Positions 5,076 through 24,693 of a stretch of 33,016 nt of DNA are shown here, in pieces. The position numbers were made by a program, and so were the translations under genes. Location of the stretch: positions 1 to 33,016 of the IMG/VR virus record IMGVR_UViG_3300030518_000025; one strand, written 5' to 3'. The notes under the pieces are model-generated. The model saw only the letters and a program-made list of their open reading frames with translations, was not told where the DNA came from and made no database searches. Position 1 is the stretch's first letter. Each line of letters starts with the position of its first letter. This DNA is from a virus.

Positions 5076-5199
5076 TTGGCACCTCCGTAAGTTGATTGAA
5101 ATTAGTCACAACTGCTGCTGTGTCGAATTTCGTCTCGACCTACGAGGTGGCCCGTATCGGGAGCCAAGCGGGGTACTACATGTTCGTGATTCTAAAACA

Positions 5200-5233
5200 A
5201 AAATAGATAGACTGCAAGCAGTCTATCTATTTT
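5200..5233. terminator. Strong symmetrical terminator upstream of the capsid gene
   Basis: A perfect 15 bp stem (AAAATAGATAGACTG and its complement) closes a 4-base loop, with A-rich sequence on one side and T-rich on the other, so it could stop transcription in both directions. Leftward transcription from the portal/scaffold genes meets it before the capsid gene. The 124 bp from here to the capsid start hold no gene, and I found no convincing promoter there. Confidence 0.85.
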
Positions 5234-5254
5234 ATTAGACTCGTAAAGCTGGGT

Positions 5255-5662
5255 TTAGGCGCTTAGTAGTGCGTGCCACACAGCCGGTGCGTCGGACACG
5301 CAGAAGAACGTGACCGTCTTCCCAGCCGCCAACGCATAGGCGGCATTCACAGCCAGCGCGTTGATAGCATCGCCGACACCGGGGAAGACATTCAGGCTGT
5401 TCGCTGCAGCTGCATTAGCGACGGTAATCGAATTACCGGCAACCGCAAGGGGAAGCAGAACCGAATCGCCTGCTGAGGCCACTGTAGTGACACGGGCGAT
5501 CTGGGTGGTGATAGGATACCCGGTGGTCTGTCCGCCGCCAGCATGAGCTGTTACGGCATCCATGTAGGTCTCCACGAAGAACCCTGGGGTGGACATGTTG
5601 CCCCCGGCGTTTCGTGGGCTGTTCATGGCTTGTTCTGCTGCGTCTCTTGATCCGATGCTCAT
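5255..5662 (-). CDS. Small virion protein between scaffold and capsid genes, 135 aa
   Basis: Starts MSIGSRDAAEQAMNSPRNAGG with a weak AGAAAA site. An alternative ATG at about 5596 (MSTPGFFVETYMDAVTAHAGG) would also give a good beta-rich protein. The second half (VALNSLNV-like FPGVGDAINALAVNAAYALAAGKTVTFFCV) matches the pattern of small phage capsid-surface proteins with a repeat of hydrophobic beta strands and a final Trp-His-Ala segment. The position between scaffold and major capsid genes suggests a head decoration or fibre-base protein. The function is inferred. Confidence 0.7.
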   Translation of the reverse strand: MSIGSRDAAEQAMNSPRNAGGNMSTPGFFVETYMDAVTAHAGGGQTTGYPITTQIARVTTVASAGDSVLLPLAVAGNSITVANAAAANSLNVFPGVGDAINALAVNAAYALAAGKTVTFFCVSDAPAVWHALLSA

Positions 5663-5704
5663 AATTTTCTTTCAAGTGGTTGGTACGGTTAAGTATGGGG
5701 CCGG

Positions 5705-6688
5705 TTACAGCTCGTCGCCCCGCAGTTTAGCTAACGTCTTCTCGTCAATAGCCGCGAAGTCCTTCTGGCTCATAGCCATAGCGCGTTCAGCGGTCAACGC
5801 GCCGCCCTGCTCGTCGCTATTCACCCCGACTTTCGTCAGCGAGGCTGGGGTCTTGTTCACTGCGTCGATCCCTGCCTTCAGGGCGGCTTCCCTGCGGGCG
5901 GCAGCAACGTCTTCTTTTTTGACGTTCGGCGTCACTTCAGTCGCGATCTCCTGCTTCTTCGTGCCGGCACCGAGCATCTTGGTTACGGCTTTCTGCAGCG
6001 CCGCCGAGGGAGCCAGCCCTTTGCGCTCGTAGGTGGCCTTCAGGTCCAGGATATCTTCGACCTGCTCGCTGTCATATGCCTCGTCGTTAGGGTTCAGCAC
6101 CGGGTACGCCGACTCCAGCCGTTCCACGACGGTGTCGTAGCGCACACGCTCGACTGCGCGCACTTCCGCCTGCTGCACCTTCATATCTGACTGGTACTCG
6201 CGCACATCCCGCTCCAGACGGCGAATTTCGCTCATCTTGGCAGTGGCCTTTTCGATCTCGCCGTCAGCCAGGAGCTTGTTGTACTCCGCCTCCAGGCCGA
6301 CGATCTTCGTCTCGGCGGCATTCAAGTCCTGGTTGACCTTGACGACTTGCTCGCCCTGCTTGTACTTAGCCAATTCAGCGACGAGCGCGGCGCGCTCTGC
6401 GCGCTCTTTCTTGAGGATCGCGTCGTGACGCTCGAAAGGAACGGGTTTTTGCTTCGCTTTCAGCGCTTCGGCGGCTTTCTCTTCGTCCGTCTGGTCTAAC
6501 TTCGTCTCGTCGACGACCTTGTCATCTTTGAGCGGATCAACAATCGTGGCAGGATCGACTTTGTCTGCCGGAGCACCGTCGCCGAGGGTGACTTCGTTGC
6601 CCCAGTCTTCAGCGCCGCCGCCTTCGTCGCCTGCGGCGTACATGAAGAAGGGGGCGAGGAGGAATTTTAGGAGTTTGGAGTATTTCAT
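5705..6688 (-). CDS. Scaffolding protein, 327 aa
   Basis: Starts MKYSKLLKFLLAPFFMYAAGDEGG with AGGA upstream and an ATGA overlap with the portal stop. After a short hydrophobic leader the protein is acidic (residues 20-75), then has long Lys/Glu-rich coiled-coil helices (about 85-195: ILKKERAERAALVAELAKYK, KIVGLEAEYNKLLADGE). It ends with helical segments rich in Ala and Lys. This composition and the position between portal and major capsid genes are typical of phage scaffold proteins that direct procapsid assembly and then leave. No protease domain is visible. Confidence 0.8.
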   Translation of the reverse strand: MKYSKLLKFLLAPFFMYAAGDEGGGAEDWGNEVTLGDGAPADKVDPATIVDPLKDDKVVDETKLDQTDEEKAAEALKAKQKPVPFERHDAILKKERAERAALVAELAKYKQGEQVVKVNQDLNAAETKIVGLEAEYNKLLADGEIEKATAKMSEIRRLERDVREYQSDMKVQQAEVRAVERVRYDTVVERLESAYPVLNPNDEAYDSEQVEDILDLKATYERKGLAPSAALQKAVTKMLGAGTKKQEIATEVTPNVKKEDVAAARREAALKAGIDAVNKTPASLTKVGVNSDEQGGALTAERAMAMSQKDFAAIDEKTLAKLRGDEL

Positions 6689-11586: not shown

Positions 11587-11590
11587 TTCT

Positions 11591-11632
11591 GCAAGGACGC
11601 GGTAAGGCTGCGTCCTTGCTCTTTTTGCTTTT
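11591..11632 (+). terminator. Intrinsic terminator, copy 2
   Basis: GCAAGGACGC and GCGTCCTTGC form a 10 bp stem with loop GGTAAGGCT, followed by TCTTTTTGCTTTT. It begins 4 bases after the stop of the 81 aa gene. Confidence 0.85.
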
Positions 11633-11657
11633 GTGTTCATTACCTAGGAGAACGAAC

Positions 11658-11813: not shown

Positions 11814-11818
11814 ACCCT

Positions 11819-11860
11819 GCAAGGACGCGGTAAGGCTGCGTCCTTGCTCTTTTTGCTTTT
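11819..11860 (+). terminator. Intrinsic terminator, copy 3
   Basis: The same hairpin and T-tract as at 11591; 47 bases from the first stem base (11819-11865) are identical to 11591-11637. It follows the 51 aa gene. Confidence 0.85.
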
Positions 11861-11899
11861 GTGTTGTTCCCTATCATTCAATCACTCAGGAGAATCATC

Positions 11900-19072: not shown

Positions 19073-20053
19073 ATGCGCCCTACCCAGCTTAAAACCGCTT
19101 TACGCCACTTGATGTCCAAACGCCGCGCTGCCTTCATCTGGGGACCCCCAGGTGTCGGCAAGAGTGACATCGTGGCATCCATCGCCAAGGAAGACAAACT
19201 CGATCTGATCGACTTCCGTATGGCCCTGCGCGACCCGACCGACATCAAGGGCTTCCCGATGCCGGACACCACCACGAAGACCATGAAGTTCTTCCGCGAC
19301 GGGGAACTGCCCACCAAAGGCAAGGGCATCCTGTTCCTGGACGAGTTGAATAGCGCAGCGCCGGCCACACAGGCAGCGGCCATGCAGCTGACCCTCACCG
19401 GCAAGATTGGCGACTACACCCTACCAGGAGGCTGGCGCATCATCGGTGCCGGCAACCGCGAGTCAGATCGTGCAGTCGTCAACCGCATGCCATCAGCGCT
19501 CGCCCTACGCTTCACCCACCTCGATCTGGATGTCAGTCTGGATGACTGGAGCACCTGGGCGCTGGAGAACAATATGCCGACGGAGTTGATCGGATTTATC
19601 CGCTTCCGGCCAAACCTGCTGCACGCGTTTGACCCGTCACAGCGCAGCTCGCCGAACCCACGCAGTTGGACGTTCGTGAGCAGCGATATCGGCTCCAGCA
19701 TGGACCGCGACACTGAGTATGAAGTGCTGAAAGGTACGGTCGGAGAAGGTGCAGCCAGTGAGTTCGTGGCGTTCCTGCAGGTGTATCGTGACCTGCCCAG
19801 CATCGACAGTATCATGCTAAACCCGGACAGCGTACCAGTACCAACTTCCCCGGCGACTCTTTACGCCCTCAGCTCTGCGCTGGGCGCGAAATCTAAGAAA
19901 GACACATTCGACCGAATGATGATCTACGTAGAGCGCATGCCTATCGAGTTCCAGGTCGTGACCGTGCGTGACGCCATCCGGCAGAACAATACGATTTCGG
20001 CGACGAAGGCGTTTGTGAAATGGGGCATCAACAACGCATCAATCGCGATGTGA
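19073..20053 (+). CDS. MoxR-like AAA+ ATPase, 326 aa
   Basis: MRPTQLKTALRHLMSKRRAA; an open AAA+ domain with Walker A GPPGVGKS at 24-31, Walker B ILFLDE at 86-91, sensor 1 IIGAGN at 123-128, and a likely arginine finger in MPSALALRF near 139-147. MoxR proteins usually act as chaperones that remodel or insert metals into partners, often with VWA proteins. Here a VWA-metallopeptidase gene follows 2.6 kb downstream in the same operon, and a DUF3150-like gene lies between. The substrate is unknown. The domain call is firm; the role is inference. Confidence 0.9.
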   Translation: MRPTQLKTALRHLMSKRRAAFIWGPPGVGKSDIVASIAKEDKLDLIDFRMALRDPTDIKGFPMPDTTTKTMKFFRDGELPTKGKGILFLDELNSAAPATQAAAMQLTLTGKIGDYTLPGGWRIIGAGNRESDRAVVNRMPSALALRFTHLDLDVSLDDWSTWALENNMPTELIGFIRFRPNLLHAFDPSQRSSPNPRSWTFVSSDIGSSMDRDTEYEVLKGTVGEGAASEFVAFLQVYRDLPSIDSIMLNPDSVPVPTSPATLYALSSALGAKSKKDTFDRMMIYVERMPIEFQVVTVRDAIRQNNTISATKAFVKWGINNASIAM

Positions 20054-20274
20054 TCAACCTAAACCGACCACTCCCCGGCCCGCAGCCCTTCGAATCCGAA
20101 GCGCAGAAGCGAGCATGGGCAGCAACTCTGCACCACTTTACAGAAGTAACGAACGCCATGAACTCGGTCGACAGGCGCAGTTTAGACCACTGCCAGAAAC
20201 TAGCCAATAAAGGCGATGCCGTCGCACTCGGAATTTTGGCCGAGTTCATGGCACAACGAATGAAAGGAAATTGA
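20050..20274 (+). CDS. Small hypothetical protein, 74 aa
   Basis: I prefer the GTG at 20050 because its GTGA overlaps the MoxR stop; an in-frame ATG at 20020 would give 10 more residues inside the MoxR gene. Reads VINLNRPLPGPQPFESEAQK with a helical body and basic end (ILAEFMAQRMKGN). It lies in the module operon. No family recognised. Confidence 0.6.
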   Translation: MINLNRPLPGPQPFESEAQKRAWAATLHHFTEVTNAMNSVDRRSLDHCQKLANKGDAVALGILAEFMAQRMKGN

Positions 20275-20275
20275 A

Positions 20276-20680
20276 ATGAGTAATCAACACGACAAAGCAT
20301 TTGAAGCCTACTTCGATAAGAAATACGGAAGGCACGGAGAGCAGTACAGCGATGAGATTATCGAAGAGGCACGTAGCGCATGGAATGCTGGGATAACCCA
20401 CACAACTGCAATCTCGAATGTCGAACCTGAAATCAAAATCGTCATACTCGACCGTGGCTTTGTCTTCGTCGGCTATGTCACTCAGACCGAGACTGAAATG
20501 TACATCGACAAAGCCCGTTGTATCCGTAAGTGGGGAACGACGAATGGACTTGGCGAACTGAAGAACGGGCCAACGAAAGAAACAGTTCTCGACGCGATCT
20601 GTACAGTTCGCCCCCTATTGCGGGCTGTGCTATTTACTGTTGATTGCAACCAGTCAAAATGGAAGCCCCACTTAGTCTGA
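20276..20680 (+). CDS. Conserved small phage protein, 134 aa
   Basis: MSNQHDKAFEAYFDKKYGRH. It has a helical N-terminus (FEAYFDKKYG.. SDEIIEEARSAWNAGI), then a beta-rich part: IKIVILDRGFVFVGYVTQTE and RCIRKWGTTNGLGELKNGPT. This combination occurs in a recurring phage protein of unknown role (I would compare with DUF6948-type proteins, uncertainly). The start is preceded by GAAA and the prior stop is one base away. Its end overlaps copy 1 of the Gly-rich element. Confidence 0.7.
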   Translation: MSNQHDKAFEAYFDKKYGRHGEQYSDEIIEEARSAWNAGITHTTAISNVEPEIKIVILDRGFVFVGYVTQTETEMYIDKARCIRKWGTTNGLGELKNGPTKETVLDAICTVRPLLRAVLFTVDCNQSKWKPHLV

Positions 20681-20970
20681 CCTTGCTAACCCGTCGTCTA
20701 TTAGGGTTAGACGACGGTCTATTAATGACGTTGGATGGCGACGGCTACGGTAGCGGCGGCAGCGGCTACGGCAACGGCTACGGCTACGGCGGCGGCGGCG
20801 ACGGCGACGGCTACGGCGGCGGCAGCGACATCGGATACGGCTACGGCAGCGGCGGCAGCGGCTACGGCAACGGCTACGGCTACGGCGGCGGCGGCGACGG
20901 CGACGGCTACGGCAGCGGCGACGGCGACGGCGACGGCGGCGGCAGCAGCGGCGACGGCTACGGCAACTAA
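20659..20970 (+). CDS. Gly-rich LTRRLLGLDDG element protein, copy 1, about 103 aa
   Basis: Starts at ATG 20659 (in-frame TTG at 20644 possible), with no good Shine-Dalgarno site, overlapping the end of the previous gene. After PLSLTLLTRRLLGLDDGLLM the rest is almost only Gly, Asp, Tyr, Ser and Asn (GDGYGSG, GYGYGGGG). A 66-bp unit occurs twice (20752-20817 and 20848-20913). Nearly every codon in the Gly-rich tract ends in C, so the DNA itself is a 6-bp-phased tract. The final TAA is followed by TAAGGAG for the next gene. Function unknown. Confidence 0.6.
   Translation: MEAPLSLTLLTRRLLGLDDGLLMTLDGDGYGSGGSGYGNGYGYGGGGDGDGYGGGSDIGYGYGSGGSGYGNGYGYGGGGDGDGYGSGDGDGDGGGSSGDGYGN
20691..20717 (+). 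repeat. Element hairpin, copy 1
   Basis: CCGTCGTCTA and TAGACGACGG, 10 bp stem, 7-base loop TTAGGGT. It is the conserved head of the Gly-rich element and is also present at 22073 and 23799. Confidence 0.9.
20752..20913 (+). repeat. 66-bp internal duplication in the Gly-rich tract
   Basis: 20752-20817 and 20848-20913 are identical as read, separated by 30 bases. The unit encodes SGGSGYGNGYGYGGGGDGDG plus a short remainder. Confidence 0.9.
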
Positions 20971-20983
20971 TAAGGAGAAAGAC

Positions 20984-21820
20984 ATGCTACAAAACCAAGC
21001 CATGATAGCAAATCTCAACATTCGCTCTTGGACAGCGCGCAAGCACGACCGCGCTGTCTCCAACGAAGTGGACGCTGCTCACAACGCACAGGAAGGTGGA
21101 CGCTACAACAAGCTGCTGATCGATAAGTCAGCACTCGACCCGCTCACCAAGCATGCAGGGCGTGTACGGGAATATCACTATTCCCTCACCTTGCCATGGG
21201 GCGACAACGGCGACCGGCTACTACCAGCCAAGGCGTACATGGACTACACCGCAACTATGAGGAAACTAAAAGATGAATATGCGTCCTATGCTCGTACATT
21301 TGAGGCTTCCTACCCCCAACTCGTTGCCGATGCTCGGCAGCGCCTGGGCACCATGTACGATGCCAACGATTATCCCCCTATCAGCGACATACGCGACCGC
21401 TTTGATATCCGCGTGGCATTTCAACCAGTCCCTGACGCTAAGGACTTTCGCGTCGATGTGGGGGACGAAGCTCTAGCTGAGATCAAAGCGAGCATCAACG
21501 AAGCCGTAGCGGAACGTCAAGCCGGCGCAGTCAAAGAGTGCTGGGTACGGCTCAACGATGTAATCGGCAAGCTGTACACCATGATGATCAAGGACAAGCC
21601 AATCTTTCGTGACAGCATCATCGACAACGTGAAGGACTTGATCAGTATGCTGCCAAAGCTGAATATCACGAACGATCCTGCATTAAACGAAGTCTGCAAA
21701 AAGGTGTCCTTAGTCGTCAACTCAACTTCGCCACATTATCTACGCAAAAGCGCACGAATGCGCAACGACGTGGCGCTGGCTGCAGAAGGGGTGCTGCGTG
21801 AAATCGCCGATCATACTTGA
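20984..21820 (+). CDS. DUF3150-like partner of the MoxR/VWA module, 278 aa
   Basis: MLQNQAMIANLNIRSWTARK, start set by AAGGAG after element copy 1. Reads LNIRSWTARKHDRAVSNEVDA, a polar helical protein with segments LDPLTKHAGRVREYHYSLTL and a long helical middle with repeated hydrophobic heptads (AEIKASINEAVAERQAGAVK). It resembles DUF3150-type proteins, which often accompany a MoxR-like ATPase and VWA protein in phages and plasmids, so I regard it as their third partner. Its function is unknown. Confidence 0.7.
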   Translation: MLQNQAMIANLNIRSWTARKHDRAVSNEVDAAHNAQEGGRYNKLLIDKSALDPLTKHAGRVREYHYSLTLPWGDNGDRLLPAKAYMDYTATMRKLKDEYASYARTFEASYPQLVADARQRLGTMYDANDYPPISDIRDRFDIRVAFQPVPDAKDFRVDVGDEALAEIKASINEAVAERQAGAVKECWVRLNDVIGKLYTMMIKDKPIFRDSIIDNVKDLISMLPKLNITNDPALNEVCKKVSLVVNSTSPHYLRKSARMRNDVALAAEGVLREIADHT

Positions 21821-22049
21821 TGAATTTACCGATATGGACCCGACAAGAGACCCAGGCTACACAGCCATGAAGAATGCCCTCCATCGAATGCGCAATGGAA
21901 CCGACCAATTTGCAACACAAGCGGCACAGATTCTGACGATGAACACCAGCCAACGGAAAGCCTTCTATCGGCGCATGAAGAACGGCATGAATACCCCATT
22001 CATCAACGAGGTGCGGATGCAGACATTGGTGATGCGGCTAGGAGGATGA
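21798..22049 (+). CDS. Small hypothetical protein, 83 aa
   Basis: GTG start at 21798 (AAGGGG 7 bases upstream) with 23 bp overlap with the previous gene; ATG at 21834 is an alternative. Reads TDMDPTRDPGYTAMKNALHR then AAQILTMNTSQRKAFYRRMK, helical and basic. The stop TGA is followed by GAGATG of element copy 2, whose GGAGG lies inside this gene's end. Function unknown. Confidence 0.6.
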   Translation: MKSPIILDEFTDMDPTRDPGYTAMKNALHRMRNGTDQFATQAAQILTMNTSQRKAFYRRMKNGMNTPFINEVRMQTLVMRLGG

Positions 22050-22050
22050 G

Positions 22051-22269
22051 ATGGATACCCTCTTTAAACTAACCCGTCGTCTATTGGGGCTAGACGACGG
22101 GATATTAATGACGTTGGATGGCGACGGCTACGGCAGCTACCACGGCAACGGCAGCGGCTACGGCGTCAGCGGCTACGGCGACGGCGGCGGCAGCGGCGGC
22201 GGCGTAGGCGGCGACGGCAACAACGGCTACGGCGACGGCGACGGCCATGGTAGAGGTTACGACAATTAA
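22051..22269 (+). CDS. Gly-rich LTRRLLGLDDG element protein, copy 2, 72 aa
   Basis: MDTLFKLTRRLLGLDDGILM. GGAGG stands 5 bases before the ATG, the best evidence that the element is translated. The conserved head LTRRLLGLDDGILMTLDGDG is followed by Gly/Asp/Tyr/Asn/Ser repeats (GYGDGGGSGGGVGGDG). Stop TAA at 22267-22269 lies in TTAAGGAG, the ribosome site of the next gene. Relative to copies 1 and 3 the differences in the head are mostly silent. Function unknown. Confidence 0.65.
   Translation: MDTLFKLTRRLLGLDDGILMTLDGDGYGSYHGNGSGYGVSGYGDGGGSGGGVGGDGNNGYGDGDGHGRGYDN
22073..22101 (+). repeat. Element hairpin, copy 2
   Basis: CCCGTCGTCTA and TAGACGACGGG, 11 bp stem, loop TTGGGGC. Confidence 0.9.
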
Positions 22270-22279
22270 GGAGCAAGAA

Positions 22280-22501
22280 ATGGCCAAAACGGAATTACCG
22301 AAGACCCACTACTACGATATGGCACTTACCCTACTCGCACTGGAAAACAAGAAATGGATATCGAACAAAAATACATATAACCACTGGGACCCCGAAACGC
22401 GGCTCTGGTGGATCAAGCGAGTAGAGGAAGAAGCCGCTAAAGGCTTGCCAATGGCAACTGAATTGGTTGCCAAGGCATTGATGATAAGGATGACGAAATG
22501 A
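22280..22501 (+). CDS. Small hypothetical protein, 73 aa
   Basis: MAKTELPKTHYYDMALTLLA, start set by AAGGAG fused to the stop of element copy 2. Aromatic and charged: HWDPETRLWWIKRVEEEAAK. No membrane segment or motif recognised. Overlaps the next gene by ATGA. Its position between element copy 2 and the metallopeptidase suggests a module accessory, but nothing more can be said. Confidence 0.65.
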   Translation: MAKTELPKTHYYDMALTLLALENKKWISNKNTYNHWDPETRLWWIKRVEEEAAKGLPMATELVAKALMIRMTK

Positions 22502-22677
22502 ATACACATTACAAAGTATATTGGGAGATCGATATTTTCGCCGACTCCCCAGAAGCTGCTGCAGAGGTAGCATTGATGGCCCAGCGCGACTCTTCCTCGA
22601 CATGCACCTATTTCACAGTGTACGATGTCCGTACCGGAACTTCGATTGACGTCGACCTAAACACAAGCGGAGAATAA
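22498..22677 (+). CDS. Small conserved phage protein, 59 aa
   Basis: MNTHYKVYWEIDIFADSPEA: ATGA overlap with the previous gene and one base before the next ATG. The pattern Y.V.WEIDI.ADSPeeAA..A..iQRD..St...F.V.D is one I know from many small phage proteins of unknown function. Good composition and tight coupling make it real despite its length. Confidence 0.75.
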   Translation: MNTHYKVYWEIDIFADSPEAAAEVALMAQRDSSSTCTYFTVYDVRTGTSIDVDLNTSGE

Positions 22678-22678
22678 G

Positions 22679-23776
22679 ATGAACGAACAAGCCAAAGCCA
22701 AAACCAAGCTCACCCGCGCCCGAGCAACGCTGATCCTCGATCAGCCGTTCTTCGGTGCGCTGGCTCTGCGCCTGCACCTCGTCGAAGACGAAAACACAAA
22801 GACCATGTCTGTGGACGGTAAGACGATCCGCTACAACCCGGACTTCGTGAACGAGTGCAGCGCTGGCCTCACCAAAGCCGTCGTCGCCCATGAGGTCATG
22901 CACTGCGTCCTTGATCATATGGGACGGCTTGCCGAACGCGACCACCGTAAATGGAATCAGGCTGCAGACTACGCCATCAATCAGATTCTGGAAGATGTCG
23001 GTTTCAGCTTCGAAGGCACCGGCCTTCTCAACCCTGCATTCAAAGGTAAATCCGCTGACGAGATTTACACACTCCTGCCGGATACCCCAGAAGGGCAGAG
23101 CGACCCACTCGACAATATGACCCCAGGCGATCCTGACCCTGCGGCCAAGGCTGAAGCTGCGCGCGACTGGAAAGTTGCCACCATCCAAGCCAAGGAAGCT
23201 GCCAAGATCATGGGCAAGCTACCACAAGAAATCGAACGCCTGATCGATGGCCTGCTGGCCGCACAGGTCGACTGGAAAGAAGTCTTGCGCCGCTTCATCA
23301 ACGAACGCAGCAAGGACGACTACTCTTGGGCACGTCCGAACCGGCACATGATCGTGCATGGCGTGTACATGCCCAGCCTGTATAGCGAGAACATGGGCGA
23401 CATCGTGATCGGCATCGATACATCGGGCAGCATCAGCAACAAGGTACTGGAAAAATTCAGCGCGGAGTGCGACGGAATCATCGCTGAAACGCGACCGGCG
23501 AACGTGCATGTCATCTATTGTGATGCCGCTGTAAACCGGGTACAGGTCTTCGCTCGCGGCGAGCCATTTAAACTGGAAGCATGCGGCGGAGGTGGCACGC
23601 GGTTCTCGCCCGTATTTGAAAAGGTCGAAGAACTGGGCATCCGTCCGGTGTGCCTCGTCTACTTGACGGACTTGTACGGGGATCATTCTTTTGATCCTCC
23701 TGATTATCCGACGCTCTGGTGCTGCACGACTTACAATGTTGGGGCATTCGGCGAGACCGTAAGAATAGAGATTTAA
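22679..23776 (+). CDS. Metallopeptidase plus VWA-like domain protein, 365 aa
   Basis: MNEQAKAKTKLTRARATLIL. The N-terminal part carries HEVMH at 71-75 within VVAHEVMHCVLDHMGRL, and WNQAADYAINQIL at 92-104, which looks like the rest of a zinc site. The C-terminal half has a VWA-like domain: IGIDTSGS at 244-251 (MIDAS Asp-Ser-Ser region), GGGGTRF near 303-309 and YLTDLYGDH near 329-336. This combination is the partner expected for the MoxR-like ATPase at 19073. Substrate unknown. The start is set by GGAG upstream. The next gene, element copy 3, starts at once after the stop. Confidence 0.88.
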   Translation: MNEQAKAKTKLTRARATLILDQPFFGALALRLHLVEDENTKTMSVDGKTIRYNPDFVNECSAGLTKAVVAHEVMHCVLDHMGRLAERDHRKWNQAADYAINQILEDVGFSFEGTGLLNPAFKGKSADEIYTLLPDTPEGQSDPLDNMTPGDPDPAAKAEAARDWKVATIQAKEAAKIMGKLPQEIERLIDGLLAAQVDWKEVLRRFINERSKDDYSWARPNRHMIVHGVYMPSLYSENMGDIVIGIDTSGSISNKVLEKFSAECDGIIAETRPANVHVIYCDAAVNRVQVFARGEPFKLEACGGGGTRFSPVFEKVEELGIRPVCLVYLTDLYGDHSFDPPDYPTLWCCTTYNVGAFGETVRIEI

Positions 23777-23878
23777 ATGTGTGCCCTCGTTAAACTAACC
23801 CGTCGTCTATTGGGGTTAGACGACGGGATATTAATGACGTTGGATGGCGACGGCGACGGCTACGGCAGCGGTAGTTAA
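23777..23878 (+). CDS. Gly-rich element protein, copy 3, 33 aa
   Basis: MCALVKLTRRLLGLDDGILM then TLDGDGDGYGSGS. The shortest copy, with only a small Gly-rich tail; it starts directly after the metallopeptidase stop and has no clear Shine-Dalgarno site. The TAA at 23876-23878 is part of TTAAGGAG for the next gene. It shows that the head can exist almost without the repeat tract. Confidence 0.55.
   Translation: MCALVKLTRRLLGLDDGILMTLDGDGDGYGSGS
23799..23827 (+). repeat. Element hairpin, copy 3
   Basis: CCCGTCGTCTA and TAGACGACGGG, 11 bp stem, loop TTGGGGT. Confidence 0.9.
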
Positions 23879-23886
23879 GGAGAAAT

Positions 23887-24063
23887 ATGATGAGAACTCA
23901 ATTCGTACCAATAACTCCAGGAGGATCAGCCTGTGTACATCTGGCCTCGAAAACGGAGGTCGAGGCGTGGAAGAAACTGCTGAAAGATGCGGCGCACATG
24001 CCATACAAAACCAAAGAGAATTTCCAGAAGCGTGGATATACCGTTGAAGAATGGCCGGAGTAG
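23887..24063 (+). CDS. Small conserved phage protein, 58 aa
   Basis: MMRTQFVPITPGGSACVHLA (a second ATG follows directly), with AAGGAG upstream fused to the stop of element copy 3. Residues such as W..LLKDAAHMPYKT and the F.KRGYTVEEW end match a small phage family of unknown role. It is well preserved, with good codon use. Confidence 0.7.
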   Translation: MMRTQFVPITPGGSACVHLASKTEVEAWKKLLKDAAHMPYKTKENFQKRGYTVEEWPE

Positions 24064-24068
24064 ATAAA

Positions 24069-24281
24069 ATGAAAGTCAAAGAACTGATCTTGCGCTTGCA
24101 AGCCTGCGATCCTGAATTGATAGTCGTCGTAGACGGCTACGAAGGGGGCGTGACCGAAGTGCAGAACATTGTAGATCGCAAGCCCCTCAAACTGAACGTC
24201 AACGAAGATTGGTGGTATGGCGAGCACGAGATCGATAGCGCCGACCATGACTGCTTTGCAGTTTATATTTCAAGGGGCTAG
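24069..24281 (+). CDS. Small conserved phage protein, 70 aa
   Basis: MKVKELILRLQACDPELIVV; the pattern L.kLq..dPe..VvvdGYEGG and an acidic C-terminal part ending AVYISRG is common in phage small proteins and is of unknown role. I start at 24069 (AATG follows AGATAA), not the frame extension at 24051. Followed 3 bases later by the MGYRSDV gene. Confidence 0.75.
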   Translation: MKVKELILRLQACDPELIVVVDGYEGGVTEVQNIVDRKPLKLNVNEDWWYGEHEIDSADHDCFAVYISRG

Positions 24282-24284
24282 ATA

Positions 24285-24693
24285 ATGGGCTACCGTTCAG
24301 ATGTCGCATACGTGATCGCCGGCAAGAAGGAAGCCATCATTGCCTTCCTGCTGGTGTGCAAAATGGATCACCCTGAGGTCAACCTCGCTATCGACGAATG
24401 TACAATCGGAAGACTGGAGAAAGGCGTGCTTTTCATCGGGTTCTGCGCCAGCGATGTGAAGTGGTGTCCTAATTACGAAGACGTTAAATGTCATGACGTT
24501 CTTTGGAGTCTCGCCCAAGACCAAGAAACCTTGGAAGGTCAAAAGTGCATTATCGGAGAAGACGACAACGACATCACCAATGATAATTTTGGGGGATGGT
24601 GAGTTTGAGCTTTGGAGCCGTTTATCGATTAGTCGTAGCCTCAACATTGATCTGAATCTTGGAAAAGAGCATGATATACGGGAGACAGCATGA
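24285..24693 (+). pseudogene. MGYRSDV-type phage protein, frame broken by an extra G
   Basis: MGYRSDVAYVIAGKKEAIIA and the middle (KWCPNYEDVKCHDVLW) fit a known family of 'MGYRSDV' phage proteins of unknown function. Reading frame zero ends at 24602 after NDITNDNFGGW. Skipping one G of the run at 24591-24595 instead gives NFGDGEFELWSRLSISRSL to a stop at 24693, which fits the family's usual acidic end. That stop has the ATGA overlap with the next gene that the operon favours. So the gene is probably 24285-24693 with a +1 frameshift; it could also be a sequencing error. Confidence 0.75.

Follow-up and report, generated by a model that had tools for sequence, protein, structure and literature searches.

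What is conserved in a short repeat that occurs three times at gene ends in one phage record, the peptide it encodes or the hairpin it contains, and what would its product do? The repeat lies in IMG/VR record IMGVR_UViG_3300030518_000025, and the whole 33,016-base virus record is referred to here as the window. The initial annotation described a head of about 60 bp at 20686, 22069 and 23795, each copy with a stem-loop and each running into a glycine-rich tract, and held that peptide and hairpin were both kept. The observation is real, and the claim is supported in part: the reading of the hairpin does not stand. Here we describe the three genes, H1, H2 and H3, and their link to a neighbouring gene, C. 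We consider it roughly 45% probable that H1 to H3 are paralogous low-complexity partner genes of C, which has a predicted Sm/LSm-like fold, and that their tails would tune nucleic-acid binding; the assembly of C as a ring, its binding and the function of the tail are what we infer.

H1 to H3 are real coding genes for glycine-repeat proteins. The three heads show 3, 1 and 0 mismatches against one consensus, with 0 expected from 100 shuffles. They open separate frames with tracts of very different length (Table 1), and each copy starts at or over the end of the preceding gene, as had been claimed: H1 overlaps it by 22 nt, H2 begins 1 base past the previous stop and H3 immediately past it. The stops had all been placed within TAAGGAG, which is correct for H2 and H3; H1 stops one codon earlier. 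H2 has its own ribosome-binding site, and none is seen for H1, whose start lies within the end of C. Structure prediction gives the H-family head a helix at residues 2-11 with modest confidence and a low-confidence or disordered tail; the predicted local distance difference test (pLDDT) score is below 50 for tail residues 20-72 of H2. The hydrophobic moment of the head is no better than in shuffles. No function for H or C emerged from Pfam, PHROGs, NCBIfam or PADLOC, and the matches of tract proteins to TrAA12 (PF22807) look like matches of composition. Within the H1 tract (20741-20967) there is an internal repeat at an offset of 96 nt, with 117 of 131 bases identical.

The H1-H3 repeat is the local form of a wider phage phenomenon, the pairing of C with a gene for a Gly-X tract. 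This pairing is well supported and is undescribed within the literature searched. Tract loci were collected with a DNA pattern for Gly-Asp-Gly-Tyr repeats, which found at least 120 stretches in viral contigs; 80 loci were used. An untrained profile made from five C proteins (E up to 0.1) found a C relative in 39 of the 80 tract loci, 0 of 45 control loci and 1 of 79 VWA loci. With iterated profiles the count in tract loci became 73/80, and the others remained at 0/45 and 1/79. All seven tract loci without C are cut off less than 600 nt upstream of the tract, and the single VWA locus with a C relative (L223) is also the only one of the 79 with a tract. No figure for tract enrichment is claimed, because the reversed control pattern itself gave 45 stretches, often with Ala-rich repeats and sometimes with Gly-X repeats of other kinds, and the forward count is a lower bound of at least 120. 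Many of the control loci (L171-L215) are phage loci with Ala-rich AAYAAAY-type repeats, another class of low-complexity tract. The tract pattern matched 0 of 288 host-family genomes, though this set includes the tract-bearing genome G001; the pattern therefore misses some tracts.

Because the iterated profiles were retrained on tract loci, a reverse test was run from C alone. The best 80 of the 488 loci found by C, minus the four loci of the four head-bearing phages described below and one training locus, left 75, one of them untestable. A tract lies within 600 nt downstream of C in 68 of 74, compared with 6 of 67 in the upstream control and 0 of 75 antisense; the 68 include look-alike pairs, and L357 is doubtful. 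Named records point the same way. The C branch matches 119 of them, 115 from Rheinheimera phages, and the tract is the next gene after C in all three records examined (Rhodobacter phage RcapNL AFA44886.1, Rheinheimera phage Barba1A QCQ57868.1 and ctOK67 UOF79295.1). In RcapNL, whose host is R. capsulatus SB1003, C is RcapNL_00047 and the Gly-X gene RcapNL_00046. Seven of the 16 named DUF6948-branch records were fetched, and in five of them a tract comes next. Fused proteins also occur: L055 has C followed by a tract, and phrog_18306 has the opposite order, a tract ahead of a C-type domain. As in the window head, TLDG immediately precedes the tract in several reverse-set heads.

No description of the C/tract pairing was found in the literature on glycine-rich and low-complexity phage proteins, and none of six tract strings was found in the published papers searched. 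The one partial literature match to the C motif was an unrelated vaccine-design paper. In public records the tract gene is omitted in Iodobacter phage phiPLPE (L384, EU876853.1), annotated in another frame in Chlorobiaceae phage CV-1-33 (L385, MT192033.1) and named 'lamprin' in ctOK67 (L297, MW202613.1).

A Sm/LSm-like beta-barrel fold is confidently predicted for C. The AlphaFold2 model, made from 54 aligned C domains, has a pLDDT of 93.6 for C residues 43-134. In the Foldseek list of Protein Data Bank (PDB) structures Sm/LSm proteins lead, 3by7 first (E 3.4e-3), with designed TIP60 particles among them. VIA-align gave Z 8.2 to 6ppq (an Lsm1-7 subunit) and 8.1 to 3by7, and the remaining list is almost wholly Sm/LSm chains. 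The best viral models matching C come from a Rheinheimera phage and from the DUF6948 family (E ~3e-8), and phage 'Sm-like domain' proteins stand in the same list. By sequence profile no PDB match was found among solved chains at E up to 10. Against Pfam DUF6948 (PF22253) the window C scores 13.7 bits, below the curated cut-off of 27; its relatives in L123 (84.7 bits) and L055 (80.4 bits) pass, and that in L105 (25.6 bits) is below 27. DUF6948 is named in none of the papers searched, which describe no function or partner for it, and no paper on a phage Sm-like protein is among the Sm-like literature matches listed. The tract part is negatively charged in 67 of 68 reverse-set loci. An acidic tract beside a weakly positive C fits an interaction of tail and core and proves nothing.

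We propose that C and the Gly-X protein would form a two-gene module. The tract gene usually has its start within C or at the end of C, and its translation is probably coupled to that of C. The product of the tract gene would consist of a short head, helical by prediction in the H family, and a disordered acidic tail rich in Tyr and Asp. The tail DNA may expand and reshuffle by hexamer slippage or recombination with selection holding the amino-acid set, and whole Gly-X genes may duplicate to nearby gene junctions. The tail would bind or crowd the Sm-like core, most likely a ring, and would tune its nucleic-acid binding during infection, by analogy with the acidic tail of Hfq, which acts in cis.

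Several points weigh against this proposal. A Sm-like fold by itself shows no function; Foldseek gave no PDB match under E 0.001, and a VIA-align Z of about 8 is borderline. The charge of C is only weakly positive (median +1, above 0 in 31 of 54). C lies downstream of the tract in 3 of 73 loci (L085, L100 and L105), no C was found in control locus L173 despite its tracts, and H2 and H3 do not adjoin C. Two of the seven DUF6948-branch records have no tract. By our rule a tract is absent in 6 of the 74 C loci; among these L337 has a degenerate tract missed by the rule, and L319/L336 and L363/L367 look like near-identical pairs. The reverse query consisted of 16 C proteins, most of them beside tracts, and may be biased towards tract-bearing subfamilies; the loci it supplied were the best 80 of 488.

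The pairing and the fusions would also suit partners with a job other than RNA regulation. The tail, rich in Gly, Tyr, Asp, Ser and Asn, could for example act against host defence or enzymes as a decoy or as a scaffold for condensates, with the Sm-like fold serving only as a platform for oligomerisation. Gene sets with a constant head and a variable tract suggest diversification: at least two tract frames are present in 10 of the 80 loci, several as such sets, and L058 holds five tandem tract-gene copies that have a common end too. However, PADLOC gives no link to known defence proteins, and the target is a candidate only. We judge this alternative unlikely, and it is the one that survives best.

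Heads differ greatly among the 80 tract loci. L085, L090 and L173 each carry neighbouring sets of at least two tract genes with the same head, and these heads are unrelated between the phages. Some tract proteins bear extra C-terminal domains, one kind with a WHH.LTGSC..GR motif and another with LHAT.IPPKW (L060, L073, L100 and L110; L075, L092 and L103), and DUF7666 in L125.

The window head itself has a narrow distribution, in Oxalobacteraceae phages. An exact-pattern search of IMG/VR recovered no phage but this one, in contigs with an identity of at least 99.9% across the aligned length; a profile search of viral contigs found no additional phage, and tblastn of the head peptide, a search that the initial annotation had recommended, found no match in named phages and plasmids. 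Related phages were reached via the VWA neighbour gene, and head homologues were found in two of them, L012 and L013. The head matches in five of the nine VWA-relative records; the more distant L015, L017, L018 and L019 have no match. A genome scan added two loci, on a Herminiimonas sp. CN contig (apparently the provirus of L012) and on a contig of a Janthinobacterium metagenome-assembled genome (read as L049). Of seven matches in 294 family genomes, all but that in G001 are weak (E 0.001-0.007) and appear to be chance hits, falling within frames of 455-699 aa.

Four phages thus hold 11 copies of the head (window 3, L012 2, L013 4, L049 2), and all 11 are frames of their own at gene junctions. 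Over the 18 head codons the variable columns number 7, 3 and 18 at first, second and third positions. Nonsynonymous divergence (dN) is 0-0.25, and synonymous divergence (dS) is often saturated. By these substitution patterns the head peptide is kept by selection at the protein level, and the description as a small dispersed coding element is borne out. All four phages have a copy between C and gene D, and L012, L013 and L049 have another directly before gene L; the H2 and H3 sites are occupied only in the window. The two L012 copies are identical from the H start codon through the end of the head; they also share the stretch between the stop and the following gene's start codon, and their flanks differ. 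The nearest relatives of each window copy are the other two (dS 0.07-0.24), although H1 shares its site with copies in the other phages; the copies were therefore duplicated or homogenised within the phage.

These separate heads bear on a further alternative, that the tract is a C-terminal tail of C reached by programmed frameshifting near the end of C, such that C and C-with-tail are made in a fixed ratio. Of the 68 reverse-set tracts, 54 lie in the -1 frame relative to C; that frame stays open for 6 codons or more into C in 62 of 68, and natural in-frame fusions exist. But the tract is in the +1 frame in 13 (and in frame in 1), an ATG precedes it in 58 of 68, and an overlap of start and stop likewise yields the -1 frame; the start nearest the tract overlaps the C stop in 53 of 68. 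The extra H copies away from C keep conserved heads of their own, and H2 also a separate ribosome-binding site. We hold frameshifting to be improbable, yet a live alternative.

The tracts themselves combine a narrow set of residues with near-uniform DNA. Tyr, Asp, Ser or Asn fills the X position in 2432 of 2555 units (95%) in the 80 tracts. Mean heterozygosity at the six hexamer positions is 0, 0, 0.04, 0.52, 0.23 and 0.05, the first two fixed by definition. A single Gly codon is used in 64 of the 80 tracts and a single third base of X in 40. The dominant Gly codon is GGC in 70, GGT in 4, GGG in 3 and GGA in 3, and the usual last base of the X codon is C in 66 and T in 14. The 68 reverse-set tracts agree, with one Gly codon in 50 and heterozygosity at the last four positions of 0.09, 0.52, 0.16 and 0.08. 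Dominant codons differ among tracts, and therefore the same amino acids recur with different DNA. In old, mutated tracts of three L013 genes Gly makes up 0.36-0.41, compared with 0.08-0.24 expected from a simple neutral simulation, and there are no stops. We read tract evolution as probable fast turnover of hexamers together with selection on the peptide.

If the tract instead acted as DNA, as a hotspot of recombination or replication, or as the translational spacer of the initial annotation, with its translation incidental, the near-frozen synonymous bases inside tracts and the location of copies at gene junctions would fit. The ends of contigs L006 and L009 fall in the H1 tract as well, which is probably an effect of assembly. 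Neither role accounts for the recurrence of one amino-acid set with different Gly and X codons, for old tracts that retain Gly without stops, for the strong protein-level constraint on the head or for the pairing with C. We consider such a role very unlikely, and the spacer was not upheld.

As to the hairpin, copies 2 and 3 have a stem of 11 bp and copy 1 has one of 10 bp: the GGT/GGG difference sits in the outermost pair, contrary to the claim that no difference between copies falls inside the stem. The stem is a rare choice among synonymous sequences. With the peptide fixed, sampling gave a perfect 11-bp stem in 1 of 20,000 and the 10-bp stem of copy 1 in 4 of 20,000, and an equally stable folding occurred in 1 of 1351 sampled coding 39-mers of the window. 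The three stems count as one observation because the copies are close duplicates. Across the 11 homologous heads, two of the stem's 11 pairs fail to form in 8 sequences and two others in 7, and no compensatory change was found. The annotation had named uncompensated stem mutations in homologues as refuting evidence, so its hairpin half is refuted; its proposed comparison of dN/dS and stem covariation gave protein constraint and no covariation. In the head alignment the arm substitutions that distinguish the window from its relatives increase pairing. One template switch perfecting the palindrome, copied to three sites, would explain the window stem. As judged from these heads, the hairpin is peculiar to the window phage and is not the conserved element. 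A functional hairpin, as regulatory RNA or terminator, is the least probable alternative of all: its perfect stem and the T-rich minus-strand tail that follows copies 2 and 3 are outweighed. The stem is not kept in relatives, the coding strand has no terminator-like tail at any of the stems, there is no Rfam match up to E 1 (window 20000-24500), and a single template switch would suffice.

Table 1. Genes and stem-loops of the C/H region of the window
Feature	Positions	Strand	Basis or status
MoxR-type AAA ATPase (phrog_1297), neighbour	19073..20053	+	library match
Gene C, 134 aa, predicted Sm/LSm-like, distant DUF6948 relative	20276..20680	+	HMM relatives at tract loci, reverse test, predicted structure
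H1, Gly-X gene, long tract, 103 aa	20659..20970	+	open frame; same C-D site occupied in all four related phages
Stem-loop of 10 bp, H1 head	20690..20717	+	not conserved in relatives
Gene D, weak DUF3150 match below cut-off, downstream of H1	20984..21820	+	order conserved in related phages
H2, second Gly-X gene, medium tract, 72 aa	22051..22269	+	open frame and head match
Stem-loop of 11 bp, H2 head	22073..22101	+	not conserved in relatives
DUF2201 metallopeptidase-like/VWA protein (phrog_1314), upstream of H3	22679..23776	+	library match
H3, third Gly-X gene, nearly no tract, 33 aa	23777..23878	+	open frame and head match
Stem-loop of 11 bp, H3 head	23799..23827	+	not conserved in relatives

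Gly-X genes as a general part of a MoxR/VWA module were considered and rejected. A first count of 4 in 10 neighbourhoods was promising, and the reverse count failed, with a tract in 1 of 79 VWA loci; MoxR or VWA is present in 6 of the 80 tract loci, compared with 0 of 45 controls. Between MoxR and C, L013 carries several diverged tandem copies of a small gene of the window gene B type (5116-6349). Elsewhere in the window a perfect direct repeat of 49 bp, 228 bp apart (11589-11637 and 11817-11865), lies where leftward late and rightward early genes diverge. An open frame on the minus strand at 3-527, truncated at the left end of the window, has tandem VGLTGVAGTGG-type repeats.

We return to the reading of H1 to H3 as partners of C. 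It can be extended, tentatively and with a good deal less confidence, to a widespread ribonucleoprotein-like module of tailed phages, in which a Sm/LSm-like protein would be served by its own fast-diversifying low-complexity Gly-Tyr/Asp protein as an interchangeable tail in trans. Duplicated tail genes would then supply several tail types that retune or re-target it on host or phage RNA. In either form an anonymous repeat becomes a phage module open to testing, one that annotators often overlook or mislabel. Should C bind RNA, phages would carry an Hfq-like factor of their own, its tail encoded separately and evolving fast. This would be a natural experiment on Sm low-complexity tails, since tail sequence, length and copy number vary and the core stays recognisable.

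Among known systems, the Rickettsia palindromic elements are likewise repeated translated elements with a palindrome (PMC10969869). They are often inside unrelated genes, whereas the phage copies are free-standing genes at gene ends, and the window stem is not kept in the 11 homologous heads.

Pfam DUF6948 is the same superfamily as the C proteins of L123 and L055 and adjoins tracts in most of the named records fetched; the window C itself stays below its cut-off. In phrog_18306 the profile has a tract-like part (positions 55-137) and a C-type part (154-230), and the fusion is in reverse order, with the tract first. The closest solved fold for C, at about 16-20% identity, is the Sm-like protein 3by7, which we take to be of cyanophage origin. 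We know of no Gly-X partner for 3by7 or for the phage 'Sm-like domain' proteins.

Sm proteins often have disordered low-complexity tails. Human Sm proteins contain Gly-Arg repeats (PMC8765754), and SmD1, SmD3 and SmB resemble the phage system in joining a Sm fold to disordered regions of a Gly-X dipeptide type. Their repeats are in the same chain, are basic through Arg where the phage residues are acidic and aromatic, and serve in small nuclear ribonucleoproteins. A survey of low-complexity regions reports that aromatic residues are under-represented in them (PMC6821194).

The bacterial comparison is Hfq. Two studies report that the acidic tail of Escherichia coli Hfq, a disordered C-terminal tail with an acidic tip, mimics nucleic acid and tunes RNA binding by acting on the Sm core (PMC5606850), and that Gly-rich GGFGGQ repeats matter for the function of Acinetobacter Hfq (PMC11617691). 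Hfq and the phage pair share a Sm-type core, predicted in the case of C, and a disordered Gly-rich or acidic low-complexity tail. C differs in having no sequence match to solved chains. The phage tail is usually encoded by a separate overlapping gene, with in-chain fusions only in some phages, and it is a (Gly-X)n sequence rich in Tyr and Asp that varies fast and can be duplicated.

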